Under the pieces are notes generated by a model that searched no databases, was not told the DNA's origin, and was given only the letters and a program-made list of their open reading frames with translations. Positions 10,795-53,371 of a stretch of 64,000 bases of DNA are shown piece after piece (the stretch's first letter is position 1; each line of letters opens with the position of its first letter). The position numbers and the translations under genes are program-made. Source of the DNA: Sialis fuliginosa (lineage: Eukaryota > Arthropoda > Insecta > Megaloptera > Sialidae); contig OY540809.1 of assembly GCA_961205875.1 (NCBI GenBank), positions 9,808,267 through 9,872,266 on the forward strand, read 5' to 3'.

Positions 10795-11960
10795 TTTTAT
10801 ATATTATACTTCACTCGCGTGGATTACGGAATTATTGTTCAGATGAATTAAGTACAAACACGATTAGTTTTTATTGTAATAATAACTAATATACACCTAA
10901 ATTACCTAACAAAAACGAATCAGAACAAAAAGAACAAATAATTTGAATTCTGTTTAAATTTAAATGTTAATTATTGAAAATAAAATAAACTCAGATGATC
11001 AAAAAAGACGACCGAGCGCACGCGAATCGCAATCTCCTGTTCCCCGCTCTTACGCGGCATTTCTTCTTTAGTTCGCGTGTTGTTTAATATGTTGCCGTTT
11101 ATTTTATTTCAAGATATTTTCTTAACTATACGACCAAATTAGATGCCATAAAGGATAAATTATATCTACATTAAGTACTTATGACGATGAAATCATTTAT
11201 TTCGATAACGATTAATGTTTGCAGGTCGTAAGTCCACGGAAACAGAACCCAAACAGTTTTAATTTTCTTTGTAACATAAAAACAGTCATTGTGACTTAAA
11301 TACAAAATTGAGATATATAATATCGCGGACTTTATTTTAGATCTTTTGATCCTACACAATTTTTTATTACATTATATTGTTCAATATTTAACGCTTTAGT
11401 CAGCGTATTGCAAAAGAACGCGCTGGCGACAAACATTTTTCCGACTTGATTTACTACATTTACAAAAAAATTTTAGTCTGTAGGATCGCGCCAAGCTGAG
11501 ATATTAACTATTCAATTTACTTCTTTGTTAGCTTATGAGTTTTAATTTGTTTTTAAAAAGGGAAGGAGGTCGCGATGGTACTTAAGTGCGTAATACGCTT
11601 AAAGATAATAGTGTAAGCTACATTTAAAAAAAAAATTTGAGTCTGTAGGATCGCGCCAAGCTGAGATATTAACTATTCAATTTACTTCTTTGTTAGCTTA
11701 TGAGTTTTAATTTGTTTTTAAAAAGGGAAGGAGGTCGCGAGAGTCTTTAAGTGCGTGATACGCTTAATGATAATAGTGTAAGCTACATTTTAAAAAATAT
11801 TTGAGTCTGCATTATCATCACTGCTAATTCCTTATTTTACATAACGTAATAAAATATATCCTATAACCTGACCAGATAACATATTATCTTTTAATAAAAA
11901 AAACCCACGTAAATCGGATAAGTGGTTCTCGAGTTAGAAGCGCACTAACGGACAGAGAGA
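10795..11960 (+). repeat. REP-5 copy 2, expanded and containing tandem repeats
   Basis: The order of landmarks follows the copy at 9451: TCGCGTGGA, GAATCAGAACAAAAAG, CAGCGTATTGCAAAAGAACG, CCGACTTGATTTAC, CCTATAACCTGACCAGATAA, AAGTGGTTCTCGAGTTAG, ACGGACAGAGAG. Two insertions lengthen it. One is a GC-rich block near 11010-11070; the other is the 165-bp tandem repeat at about 11476-11819. No open reading frame of note. Confidence 0.6.
11476..11819 (+). repeat. TR-165 tandem repeat, two copies plus a partial third
   Basis: The unit begins GTCTGTAGGATCGCGCC, passes through TGAGATATTAACTATTC and AAAAAGGGAAGGAGGTCGCG, and ends GATAATAGTGTAAGCTACAT. Starts at 11476 and 11641 give a 165-bp period. 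A third start near 11815 is cut short. A dispersed copy lies at 36705-36842. Confidence 0.85.
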
Positions 11961-47424: not shown

Positions 47425-49187
47425 CTTGAGCAAAAATTAAATTTAAATAACAGTTCAGTGAAAGTTGTAGGCGCGCTAAGTAGAAATCAGCAATCTAAAA
47501 GGAGTGGTGATAGGTGGACACAATAGAATGTATAGCAGCTTTACATTTTGTGTATTTAGTACCACTGCTCAAAAATCTCGAGCAAACTTATAACGATTTG
47601 ACATCTTACAGAAAGCGTATGTGATATTGTTTTTTTTTATGATTAAGATTGACAGTGAACATTTACATTCCATAGGGTTCTTCTAAAATGTATTCGAATG
47701 AATTATTTGTCAAGATGCCAAATAAAACGCAACAGAAACTCTGATAACGGTATTGTATAAACACAATAAATTTTAAATATGGAAAAATACTACATTTTAA
47801 CGATTTGGCGTTAGGTTACTACATTTTAAAATAACCTAACCTAACTTATACATATACTATCTGATCCGATAAACGTTGTTCTGCCCAAAAATAATTTGTT
47901 TAAAAATCTGACCATAAATACACATTTTCGTAAATATCTCGATTCTAACGCCACCTACCATTTTTTGTAAAAATATTTCTTTTCACGTAACCAAGACGTA
48001 TTCTGAATATGAGCCAAATCGGAAGATAAATACAATTTATCAAAATATCTCGACCCACCTACCGGGTCCAAAAAAAGATAAACTTATCGGAACACCAAAC
48101 GAACATATGGTGTGAATATGGCTCCGATATGGGCAGTGGTTTAGGCCTGATGACGTTCAAATACATAAGATTTATTATATGAATGTAATAAGTAAAAAAA
48201 ATTGGTTTCTTGACCTTAACTAAAAAAAGTATTATCTTTAATACTTTTTTTAATTGTATTATTTATATATAAATTATTATATACAATGTATTAACAATTT
48301 ATAGTTTAATTTATAAAATAGAACAAAATTGCTGATGAACAAACAAGCAGTCGTAATATTGGATGAAATATGCAGTGTCATAGAAATAGTCTAGTAAATA
48401 ACATATTAGAAGCTAGACAACATAAAAGAAACAGCATTGTGTACACGAAATCCCTTGTGTTCTCAGCAGGTGTTTCGTGGAGAAAATAAATGAGGAGCGA
48501 CATAATATAAAACTAGTCGAATCTAGAGAAAATGGCGTACAATATTCAGCGAACACATTCTCAAAGGATTTTAGTTGATTACTATGATAATAGCTTCTAT
48601 TTTATGCATATTGCCGATAATTATTTGTCTTTTACATTAGAGAAAAGTTTGTTTTAATAAAAATATTAAAAGTAACCCAAATACTATCTGGGGAGTGTTC
48701 AATTCAAATATTTATTTTAAATCTAAATCAGCGATCTAAAAGTAGTGGTGATTGAAGTACATCTTAGAAAGGACAGTAGTTTACATTATTACATAATCAT
48801 TACCAACATTTTGGACTCGACCATTTTTTTTATAATAAATAACTTTTTTTGATGCCGTTCACAAATGACGCAATTAGCGCAATTCATTCGCCAAACAAGT
48901 GATTTTCCAAGAGCTGATGATGTATTTTTCTGTTTCATCTTAGACTCATGAAAAACGTTTATTCATGTTTATACATCATGAAAAATATAGCCTCAACCCC
49001 CACACTCTGGGTTGTAATCTCTTAATAAATAAGTAAAGAAAAAAAAAACATCTTTATATCTTTGGTATTAACTATTGCATCGATGGTATCAAATATGTTT
49101 TCTCAATATGAACAAATCATTATGTGATTTACTTATTACTGGAAAAACGGAGAAACTGTGGTTTCTTAGTCACTTAAACTAAAAATA
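47425..49187. other. Probable intron or intergenic DNA, no exon seen
   Basis: A short two-copy block (AATCAGCAATCTAAAAGGAG and AATCAGCGATCTAAAAGTAG) occurs at about 47484 and 48726. AT-rich otherwise, with a repeat-like piece at 47930-48130 (CGACCCACCTACCGGGTCC). Confidence 0.45.
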
Positions 49188-49214
49188 ACACCTTAACCAC
49201 AATAAAACAATGTC

Positions 49215-49258
49215 ACTCGACACGTGTTTCGACTTCACAAGAAGTTCTCATCAGGAGA
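49215..49258 (-). ncRNA. Second hammerhead-like motif (minus-strand arm of FB-2), weaker
   Basis: The mirror arm reads CUGAUGA, G, AACUU, CUUGUG, AAGUC, GAAAC, ACGU, GUC on the minus strand. Core bases are intact. Stem II has an A-C mismatch at its base and stem I is only three pairs, so cleavage would be less likely than for the plus-strand copy. Confidence 0.45.
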
Positions 49259-49275
49259 CAGTCTGGAACTGTTAG

Positions 49276-49319
49276 GCTCCTGATGAGGACTTTTTGTGAA
49301 GTCGAAACACGTGTCGAGT
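49276..49319 (+). ncRNA. Predicted hammerhead ribozyme (plus-strand arm of FB-2)
   Basis: Stem I pairs GCUC (49276-49279) with GAGU (49316-49319), including one G-U pair. The core CUGAUGA is at 49280-49286. One unpaired G follows. Stem II is GACUU/AAGUC (49288-49292 with 49299-49303) with loop UUUGUG. GAA at 49304-49306 follows. Stem III is the minimal AC/GU (49307-49308 with 49313-49314) with loop ACGU. The cleavable position is C at 49315. All invariant bases of the hammerhead consensus are present. An extra base before stem II and a tiny stem III are, from memory, also seen in Penelope-associated hammerheads. Activity is untested. Confidence 0.65.
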
Positions 49320-49346
49320 GACATTGTTTTATTGTGGTTAAGGTGT

Positions 49347-51920
49347 ATATTTATTTACTTATGTTAAGTACCATTTGGTCAAAATTTTTAAATTCATAAA
49401 AATTAGACGATGAAGTTTTTGCTAGATCTATTATGATTTCTGCCCAATGCTCAGATGGGAAAGAAAAATATGTCACCAGCTCTTGGACTATGACTTTATA
49501 AGTATGTACTCATCTGTATTTTTATCAATTTTTAAATTGATGTATTTTCACACTAATGTACACTAAAGTACAAAAACATAATTTACAATTCCTTATATTT
49601 TTTCTATCCCCTTATAGATTTCTATATTTATGATATTTTTCAAAAAAAAAACAGACAAACGTATTTAATATTTATAAATACATATAATTGAAAATTGAAA
49701 AATATCCGAATCGTTAAAATAATAATAATTTAAATACCTATTGATCAAATATTTGTTTTCTCTATCTATACATATTTACATACATAATGTACAAATGTTT
49801 GTATACATACATACATATATATATATATGTGTACACACGTATTCTCGACATAAGAAGGGTAGTCGAAGCAGGGTTGATAAATTGACCTATGATAGACCTA
49901 TTAGACCCTAAACGTGAAGCAACTGTATCAGCTGTCTCACAATCCTTGATGGCCCCATTTAATATCCCTGCTCGCGTGTAACGACTGGCTAAATTTATTT
50001 GAATTTATACATCAAATAAAATATGTTATTATTTGTTTTATGTTTTATTTGAACACCACGTGTATTTAATTATTAACATTTAGCTTCGGTGAATAAATAA
50101 ATAAGTAAATATGTGTGCATATTTGAACATGTGTTGTGTATTTATACAAATAAAAAAAACAAAATTATCTTTGCAATTATCGTTCATTTTAGGACTGTTC
50201 ATACATTTTGTGATGTTTTATTTGTTGTCTTATGGAGAATTTAATAAAATTAAAAATGTATGGTATTTTTTAAACTAATTTTAAATTGATTGATCTTTAT
50301 TTCTAGATTTTTTTTATAAAGTGTACAGATTCTGATATAAAACTAAAATTACAATTTGATTATCAAGTTTCATTAAAATCACTAATTGTAAGTTTAAAAC
50401 ATTGATTAACCCAATCGTGCCCAGCGTTAAATATAGTAATAGAGTGATTTTGTTAAGATTTTGCGTTGATGTAAGATTATTTTAATTCGAATGGGTTTGA
50501 AATCATATTTTCGAATATTGAACTGAATACATCAACAATGCTATTACCAACGTTCTGGAGTTTTAGTATACTTAGATAGGTATGAATTGATGACAGAAAA
50601 ATCAGCAATATCGGTAACAAAAAAAACCTCGGCCACGATTGGGTTAAAGCACATGCTATTCAAAGCAATGTTTTATAAATGTTGTAAATAGATATTTATA
50701 TGTATTTATAGATCTATTAATAACGTATAAATAAATAATATAAAATTGTTTTGATAAAGTTATGAAGTCAATTCCTGTTTATTTGCTACAAATAAGTGTT
50801 AAAACAGTGAGTTGATAAATCAAAAAGCTTTCTCTACATTTAATTGTAAAATTTGAAAAGCGTGTGACGACGAATATATTAAAAGTTTTTCATGAAGTTT
50901 AAATTTTCCTCTTGAAATAAATTAAGAACTTTTATTTTGAATTGATAAAAATGTTAATATTATAAGGACATTACAAACCATTAAAATAATTAGTTTCTTT
51001 ACGTTAAAGACCAACATCTATTATAAACTTTATACATATTTCAATATTTGAAATAGCAATAATAAAATAACTATTCATATCACACTTTTCTCGATTGTAT
51101 TAAATTCGAACAAATTGAGGTTAAAACGAGATTAACTTATTTCGGACGAGACGCGAGAGTCTTGGTTTTAAAAATGTATTATTATATATATATTTATATT
51201 ATCAATACTTAAATAAGAATTGAAAAATATTTTTAATAAAAAAATACACTCGAGACTATATTCTAATATTCGAGATAGCTTCAATTTTCATGAGACGAGA
51301 CTGTCAATTACGAGAGACCGAGAAGAGACTTCAGTTCTAAAACCCGAGACGAGACACCGATGGTTTAGTGTTAAGATAAAATGAAGTATTATGTAAAGAA
51401 AACAACACATATATCGTAAACCAGAAGACCACGGTAAAATAAATATATAAAATTAATATAACTCAATTTCATTGTTACTCGCATTGTTCTAAACACACAT
51501 TGAACATGCAAACTCCATAATCCTAGTAATAATAATTTATATTTAATATCAGTTTATCCCAAATGTAGAACTCCGAACCGTTGGCTATTCCAATTTCCAT
51601 CAAAACTAATGTCTGTTATACAGTAGAACACATTATTATGATTCGTAAGTAACATTATGTTAATTAACAATACACGATATGTGTAATTAGTGTATAAGTG
51701 CTGCTACATTCAGATGGATACATTACAACAACTCTTAATACAGCGTACATTTCACTGTAGTTGAGAATGTTACGTAGTTTTGATAGCGATGCTGTTTGTG
51801 TATTTGTATTTATAGTTATTAGCTTTGTTAATCTAACTATGTTCACTTTAATATGACGATTTATGTAGGTTATAGAATTAAAACGAGCTTAGAAAAGATA
51901 AATGTGTACATTTAGATATA
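49347..51920. other. AT-rich stretch with no gene seen
   Basis: Short CATA/TACA microsatellites lie at about 49803-49830. A low-complexity region of CGAGACGAGA-like words (51125-51360) may be an old inverted-repeat element (ACGAGACGCGAGAG at one side, GAGACGAGACACCGA at the other). No exon signals. Confidence 0.45.
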
Positions 51921-52211: not shown

Positions 52212-53371
52212 ATGCCTAAAAAAACTGAACTTAGTGCAGAACAGCGCCAAAAAATTAAGATTTTACATGAACAAGGCATGTCTCATGTGAAAATTGCCCA
52301 GGAAGTGAAGTACTCGCGTTGTGTAGTGCAATATGCACTAAATCGTTTCAAAGAGACCGGTTACCATGAAAATAGACCAAGAACAGGCAGAAGAAAAATA
52401 ATTACAGAGCGTGAAGACCGATTTTTGCTTAGGAAGTCTCTACAGGATCGCAAAAAAACTGCTGTACACCTCGCTGCAGTTTTATCTGAAGCAAAAAGGA
52501 AATCAGTGAGTGTCTATACTGTGAGAAGAAGGCTTCTTAAAACTGGATTTAAAGGCTGCAAGGCAAGAAAAAATTCGTGGCTGTCGGAGCACAATAAGAA
52601 AAATCGGTCGGAGTGGGCCCTCAAATATAGAGATTGGACAGTGGAAGATTGGTCCAATGTACTGTGGTCAGACGAATCTAACTTTGAGGTATTGTTATTA
52701 ACTTTATGTATTACATTAAAACAAGTCAACATCTTTGAAATTACGTTCTGCAAGGAAAATAATTAAATCTTAAAATAAATATATTTTTTTCTTTTTGCAT
52801 AGGTATTTGTAACACCCGGTGTGACTTATGTCAGGCGAAGGGTGGGCGAAAAATTCAACCCAGAATGTGTGGTGCCCACTGTTAAATACGGTGGAGGCTC
52901 AATCATGATCTGGGGTTGTATGGCTACCACTGGAGTAGGCGAAATGGTGTTATGTGAGGGGCGAATGAACAGTGCGAATTACACTAAAGTTCTTGAAACA
53001 GCTCTAGTGCCGTCGATAACGCAAATTTTCGGCGATACAAACACCGACGGAGTAAAATTTCATCAATACAATGCTCCTTGTCACAAATTAGCGCACACCA
53101 TGACGTGGATGGCTCAAAACAGAATTAATCCTTTGGACTGGCCGCTACAATCACCAGACTTAATCCAATTGAAAACATTTAGTCCATTTTGAAGAAAAAC
53201 ATCCGAAGACACTCTATAAGTAATAAGCAATTGCTACTAGCCGCGTTAAAGCATGAGTGGAAACAGATATCCCAAGAAGAATGTTTTAAGCTGGTAGGGT
53301 CAATGACGAAAAGGGTGGCTGCTGTCATTAAATCGAAAGGTGGACCGACAAAATATGAATTATTTTATTAA
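52212..53371 (+). pseudogene. Tc1-like DD34E transposase, split by an intron-like segment and inactivated
   Basis: A cut-and-paste transposase that would bind the 28-bp ends and cut at TA. Residues 6-50 form a first helix-turn-helix (KIAQEVKYSRCVVQYALNRF), RPRTGRRK at 55-62 is the basic linker, and 63-112 a second helix-turn-helix. The first catalytic Asp is residue 154 in LWSDES. The frame joins cleanly across 52689-52802, giving about 348 codons, normal for Tc1. GGGSIMIWGCM follows as expected. The second catalytic Asp is replaced by Tyr in HQYNAPCH (codon 53067-53069). After SPDL (to 53162) one base is missing, shifting frame just before the final catalytic Glu. In the downstream frame a Trp position is TAG (53180-53182). 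ATG at 52212 has standard family N-terminal spacing. This copy cannot make active enzyme. Confidence 0.9.
52689..52802 (+). other. 114-bp GT-AG intron-like segment in the transposase
   Basis: Begins GTATTG after GAG and ends in a T-rich tract TTTTTTTCTTTTTGCATAG. Removing it joins NFE to VFVTPG in phase 0, as the family requires. Without removal the frame stops in AT-rich sequence after 25 codons. This fits a true intron; a small insertion that happens to be in phase is the alternative. Confidence 0.75.

Follow-up and report, generated by a model that had tools for sequence, protein, structure and literature searches.

The foldback element analysed here lies in a 64,000-nucleotide stretch of Sialis fuliginosa DNA (the window), and it is very probably a non-coding insertion of a Penelope-like element (PLE) that arose by two-ended priming of reverse transcription on one source RNA. 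It consists of a 140-nt unit, U, present twice in head-to-head orientation, the minus-strand arm being tailed and the plus-strand arm untailed (Table 1). The original prediction had described an inverted dimer of about 160 bp: the inverted dimer is borne out, but its extent is not, in that the real element includes a left-arm tail and occupies 216 bp (49137-49352), exceeding the 159-nt hairpin first described. The 36-bp tail is confined to the left arm, and an exact 10-bp target duplication flanks the 216 bp on the left and on the right.

Table 1. Features of the foldback insertion, in positions of the window
Feature	Position	Strand	Basis
Left target-site duplication, ATTTACTTAT	49127..49136		Exact 10-bp repeat at both sides
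Tailed arm, with U138 at its outer end and U18 at its inner end (5' truncated)	49137..49257	-	Alignment to U 18-138
Tail, between two putative reverse-transcription start sites; stem-loop AGAAAC-CACA-GUUUCU	49137..49172	-	Position of TTTAAG / CTCCGTTTTTCCAGTA
Minus-strand hammerhead copy, first stem II pair broken (A-C)	49219..49254	-	RF00163 23.6 bits, below gathering score of 34
Head-to-head junction	49258..49259		Two bases separating arms
Untailed arm, unit U from U1 (putative transcription start) to U93	49260..49352	+	Alignment to U
Type I hammerhead; stem II 49288-49293/49298-49303; predicted cut 49315/49316	49280..49315	+	RF00163 18.9 bits, below gathering score of 34
Right target-site duplication, ATTTACTTAT	49353..49362		Exact 10-bp repeat

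The inverted arms (49188-49257 and 49277-49346) are 70 nt each and 97% complementary across a 19-nt spacer, and the 159 nt that they delimit fold as RNA at -129.3 kcal/mol, against a mean of -38.6 for shuffled sequences (z = -22.6). No listed ORF of at least 100 aa overlaps the 216-bp element; this copy is a derivative and not an autonomous PLE. Matches of the hairpin to miRNA families (up to 31.4 bits, all below their own gathering scores) were taken as a side effect of its length.

We delineated unit U by eye in an alignment of copies, with its boundaries drawn from 38 similar loci. It begins AGTCTGGAACTG, holds the hammerhead at U21-56 and TTTAAG at U98-103, and closes with a 37-nt tail (U104-140) ending CTCCGTTTTTCCAGTAGT. 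Across the genome (392 Mb in 20 contigs) the exact core pattern CTGATGAN{8,30}GTCGAAACACGTGTCG was matched 933 times (448 + 485), compared with no matches for the reversed control, and because this figure counts both arms of some copies, the insertions, though they number in the hundreds, are fewer than 933. An exact 30-base core of the tail alone was matched 144 + 159 times, again with none for the control. Unit U had no match in viral contigs (exact 25-base pattern) or in phage records, and no significant match at five other PLE places in this genome (L107-L111).

On the strength of its sequence and neighbourhood, we identify U as a PLE terminal repeat (pLTR), with a type I hammerhead and a PLE-like tail, the parent element being related to one of the Penelope families of this genome (family B); the original prediction had named Penelope-like terminal repeats with hammerheads, which is the right family. 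At two loci (L161 and L145) a Penelope-type ORF end, ...SESLKRDKPF*, stops 31 nt before U1, and upstream of the first of these is a locus (L167) with a match to the reverse transcriptase domain RVT_1 (PF00078, 2.6e-12). The reverse transcriptase (RT) of L167 is 59% identical over 263 aa to that of family B, and a second piece, which no Pfam family matches directly, shares 51% identity over 91 aa with the family B GIY-YIG region, a region that itself passes the PF01541 cut-off in one search (L102, 23.5 bits) and not in another (20.5 bits). The RT and the GIY-YIG-like sequence of L167 lie in broken, frame-shifted frames, and no intact copy of the PLE to which U belongs was seen among the loci examined. 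A loose search of the genome for GIY-YIG (PF01541, E up to 0.1, 150 of 160 candidates scored) yielded 89 matches, several of them in long Penelope-type ORFs. Hammerhead-like motifs lie close to the 3' ends of three PLE families (A, B and C), and some of the PLE stretches examined have none.

The gap from the stop codon to U1 in L161 and L145 contains a TATA box and the initiator-like sequence TCAGTC, TCAGTY being the arthropod initiator consensus, and of the ten upstream stretches listed, five have a TATAWA that starts at -31. Because these promoter-like sequences occur in the copies that run further upstream, we infer that transcription starts at U1.

To characterise the architecture of the insertions, we drew an unselected sample from the first-listed core-pattern matches on contig C1, which came to 89 loci after the removal of duplicates (L055 and L065, the same places as L026 and L066). 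Because each sampled locus was required to have one intact hammerhead core, the starts of main arms are biased, whereas those of second arms are unbiased. A second arm in head-to-head (5'-to-5') orientation is present at 64 of the 89 loci, and no second arm was recognised at the remaining 25. The outer ends of the arms cluster mostly at U101-106 (untailed) and U138-140 (tailed), and automatic classing of these ends assigned 53 pairs, 52 of which are tailed/untailed, one untailed/untailed and none tailed/tailed; 11 pairs were left unclassed. We read 13 odd loci individually. One (L134) is tailed/untailed with its short arm tailed, its automatic class having come from a chance match picked as the second arm, and another (L146, automatically unclassed) is untailed/untailed and is the one real exception among those read. 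Two other PLE families behave similarly: four of their five inverted pairs (L084, L089, L096, L098) were classed automatically as mixed, and reading showed the fifth (L086) to be mixed as well, an AT run having mimicked a tail on both sides in the automatic classing.

Flanking repeats of at least 7 bp occur at 57 of the 89 loci, against 884 of 7,832 mismatched flank pairs; their commonest lengths are 12 and 13, and the other 32 loci have no such repeat. A short palindromic repeat at many places with target duplications is also what one would expect of a DNA transposon MITE with long terminal inverted repeats, whose likeness to a hammerhead would then be incidental. Unfortunately for this hypothesis, the duplications vary in length, the two ends are unlike, copies are 5' truncated to varying degrees, and a PLE ORF lies next to the unit, such that we consider it barely credible. 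Nor do we give much more than nominal credence to the proposal that these are metazoan retrozymes, non-LTR elements that pass through circular RNA. Like the foldbacks, retrozymes are short, non-coding, AT-rich and abundant, bear a type I hammerhead, are flanked by duplications longer than 4 bp, and have PLEs as their suspected helpers, according to the part of PMC7229834 available to us; but they are arranged as head-to-tail tandems, whereas the arms here are head-to-head, and no two same-strand matches to U of at least 60 nt occur together in the stretches of the 89 loci.

If both arms of a foldback were copied from the same RNA, they should have rare variants in common. Among the 64 dimers, minor alleles at U58-102 are common to both arms in 39 cases, compared with a shuffled mean of 5.8 and a maximum of 18 in 2,000 shuffles, and in a second set of 40 best-match dimers the corresponding values are 34, 8.9 and 20 (1,000 shuffles). 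Minor alleles confined to one arm outnumber the shared ones in this second set (113 vs. 34) and are taken as changes that followed insertion; gene conversion between the palindromic arms could have contributed to the sharing.

Between the arms, an identical end-to-end junction at U1/U2 occurs in 6 of 38 best-match dimers (L015, L027, L030, L031, L039, L045), and most other junctions vary from copy to copy, with microhomology at some. These best-match dimer analyses leave out one locus aligned in three pieces (L032) and the second copy in L041. The latter locus (C4:19527987-19529076) has two foldback copies, whose starts are separated by about 320 bp, and an identical flank repeated, which suggests a local tandem duplication of the insert together with its flank.

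Head-to-head palindromes, microhomology at some junctions and rare alleles common to the arms could all result from snap-back self-priming, in which the end of a strand turns back and primes a copy of that same strand, as was suggested for rotifer Penelope, where an antisense template was envisaged (PMC3846280). However, a self-copied arm would be expected to end at the start of the first arm or to enter the flank, and not to end at about U101-106 opposite an arm that ends at about U138-140, as occurs in 52 of 53 classed pairs, and we therefore think snap-back unlikely. Taken together, the mixed ends and the shared arm alleles favour two-ended priming from a single RNA over self-priming.

Under two-ended priming, the PLE RNA would start at U1, and the PLE protein would cut the target in staggered fashion. 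Each 3' end of the break would then serve as a primer at an internal site of the RNA, with reverse transcription starting short of the tail (about U101-106) from one of them and beyond the tail (about U138-140) from the other. Copied from the same source RNA, the resulting cDNAs would extend toward the 5' end of that RNA and be joined at or before it, often after 5' truncation. The product would be an inverted dimer in 5'-to-5' order, tailed at one outer end but not at the other and flanked by a target duplication that is usually 12-13 bp (10 in the window copy). The templates of new insertions would be full-length Penelope RNAs.

One protein dimer seated on one stem-loop might enforce this split of start sites, although the candidate stem-loop in the tail is weak (-5.8 kcal/mol, with an equally good fold in 19 of 200 shuffles). 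Taken further, every Penelope insertion might obligatorily use both internal start sites of one RNA, one for each DNA end, with two RT subunits flanking a single tail stem-loop and each extending one end of the break, a proposal that we advance tentatively and would not yet back over its negation. If it were true, the head-to-head, one-tailed structure would be the normal product of Penelope integration, and this family of pLTR hairpins would constitute a genome-wide record of integration, the pattern being matched in two other PLE families by the few inverted pairs seen there.

The foldback carries a hammerhead whose invariant core, CUGANGA...GAAA...UH, is present in order, as in type I ribozymes. 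The inverted arms and the plus-arm bases are as the original prediction had them, with CUGAUGA at 49280-49286, followed by GAAAC and the cut site. It had also proposed a 5-bp stem II, GACUU/AAGUC, which is better read as 6 bp (GACUUU/GAAGUC, the last pair U-G) closed by a UUGU loop. There is indeed a second copy in the mirror arm, on the minus strand and with an A-C mismatch at the first pair of stem II, yet it is not the weaker of the two by Rfam, which scores it above the plus copy. Minimal type I hammerheads with a very short stem III are reportedly found inside PLE pLTRs, as ascribed to Cervera and de la Pena in 2014 and to Lunse et al. in 2017. Compared with such small PLE hammerheads, those here form an inverted pair, each strand having only one sense copy.

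A search of the Rfam hammerhead models, as originally suggested, returned nothing above threshold, one of the two outcomes that the original prediction had named as refuting it: there were no matches at any gathering score in the whole window, and at a lowered threshold RF00163 (Hammerhead_1) matched the minus and plus copies with E values of 0.0017 and 0.058 in 351 nt. Taken alone these matches would be marginal, and it is the genome-wide count of core matches that is decisive. A consensus-like copy of U (L057) scored 17.7 bits, so that scores ranged from 17.7 to 23.6 bits against a gathering score of 34. Rfam also gave no match at E up to 1 in the stretches of two other Penelope hammerheads of this genome (family B L102 and family A L085) and no gathering-level match among 20 Penelope loci. 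The two missing matches and the low score of the U copy speak against a real ribozyme in the lineage. Because of these misses, we gave conservation of the stems and core more weight than the Rfam result.

Evidence on conservation comes from 13 folded hammerheads, from which seven sequences were chosen for a count of covariation that was then repeated with all 13. Among the seven, 92.9% of stem II cells are paired, eight cells are altered on both sides and the covariation score is 0.88, against 0.29 when shuffled; none of 500 shuffles was as high for either measure, the cells not being independent because several rows come from one family. With all 13, one of which (L107) is visibly misaligned at GAA, 93.5% of cells are paired, 11 cells have both-side changes (3.1 shuffled) and the covariation score is 0.61 (0.22 shuffled), again with none of 500 shuffles as high, whereas neither the number of pairs nor that of pair types exceeds the shuffles (187 and 172 of 500). 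The original prediction had staked itself on related copies conserving the stems and core, and stem II does covary among Penelope hammerheads, which supports the existence of a real ribozyme in the PLE lineage. The hammerhead reading of the window arms is right.

Since the plus arm holds a complete hammerhead, the opposite arm lacks little of one and matches in the genome are many, the foldback might itself be a self-cleaving parasite, autonomous or helper-dependent, whose transcript cleaves itself before the whole is copied again as a unit, and the common U1/U2 junction in 6 of the 38 best-match dimers might seem to mark such a unit. If this were the case, we would expect the core to be preserved in inserted copies and cDNA ends to accumulate at the cut site. 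Instead, substitutions in the invariant core (10/282) are as frequent as those outside the ribozyme (106/2663; p = 0.87), so there is no extra conservation of the core, and there is no clear enrichment of ends at the cut site, U57 being the start of only 2 of 64 second arms and U50-U62 of 5 of 64. This lack of a cluster gives no sign that most templates were cleaved there. Moreover, most junctions other than U1/U2 differ, and a pair of full-length cDNAs would be expected to produce the shared one; the window copy begins at +1, without an upstream promoter, and its transcript would fold into a single long hairpin.

A self-cleaving foldback is thus highly unlikely, and the original prediction of a minimal self-cleaving parasite is not supported, the insertions looking as if they had been templated by full-length Penelope RNA. 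With initiation so near the 5' end, any single-pLTR transcript would yield only a promoterless hairpin of about 0.2 kb, and such copies would be dead on arrival. The absence of a cut-site cluster, core substitutions at the same level as elsewhere and a transcript that would fold end to end lead us to view the foldback as best explained as a spent by-product, and under two-ended priming the hammerhead would belong to the life cycle of the PLE and not to the foldback. A plentiful hammerhead repeat would thereby be accounted for as a by-product, with the warning that not every genomic hammerhead hairpin is an active ribozyme parasite.

Two accounts of PLE integration compete, self-priming having been proposed for rotifer Penelope on an antisense template (PMC3846280) and extension on both strands of the target having been observed with a purified protein (PMC11167929). 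The latter protein, from an Anolis carolinensis PLE (PAc, of the Penelope/Poseidon clade), cuts and extends both target strands, and its reverse transcription begins at two adjacent internal sites bounding the tail of genomic copies; its hammerhead is dispensable for insertion in vitro, where the main substrate is unprocessed RNA. PAc resembles the PLE considered here in its RT body, with GIY-YIG (here a GIY-YIG-like piece similar to that region of family B), in its 5' hammerhead, and in the two tail-bounding internal start sites and the extension of both cut strands that two-ended priming would entail here. Reverse transcription of PAc starts 111-118 into its ORF, with the hammerhead cut at 26, and, counting from an ATG inside the hammerhead of U, the tail ends at +117 and the predicted cut lies at +33. 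Unlike PAc, however, the window copy has no ORF, and the frame of the hammerhead ATG in U stops after 12 codons. Furthermore, the accessible account of PAc in vitro reports no strand difference in start site, whereas here the two sites are split between the ends of the insertion.

In the available part of PMC3846280, the Penelope of Adineta vaga is described as having inverted, head-to-head pLTRs, a 31-bp tail optionally at one pLTR, and target duplications of 9-10 bp. An inverted pLTR, a one-sided tail and a TATA box and initiator in the pLTR are common to that element and to U. The Adineta vaga examples carry ORFs or host genes, and several are solo pLTRs, whereas many of the present insertions are dimers of the pLTR only; and in contrast to an optional tail, nearly all classed pairs here have a tail at one end and one end only, which disfavours self-priming. 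One-tailed inverted pLTRs and hammerheads in PLEs are thus already in print (PMC3846280 and PMC11167929, from the parts available), and the literature searched contained no account of many pLTR-only head-to-head insertions or of a one-tailed count, which is weak evidence that none exists. The numerous tiny insertions, each readable in full, provide an unusually clear record, from which the two models of integration can be told apart by sequence alone.

Several other features of the PLEs and of the window were noted. The family A Penelope copies that we saw (L083-L089) terminate in (AT)n runs, which would fit a preference for microsatellites as targets, and three family B copies (L102, L103, L104) are clustered at C9:1293410-1298541, two in the same direction and one inverted. 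Within the window, remains of a Tc1/mariner-type transposase lie on the plus strand at 52212-52766 and 52821-53192, the first ORF matching HTH_Tnp_Tc3_2 (1.5e-16) and the second having no Pfam match, and a tandem repeat of 165 bp (2.2 copies, 93% match) occupies 11454-11809.
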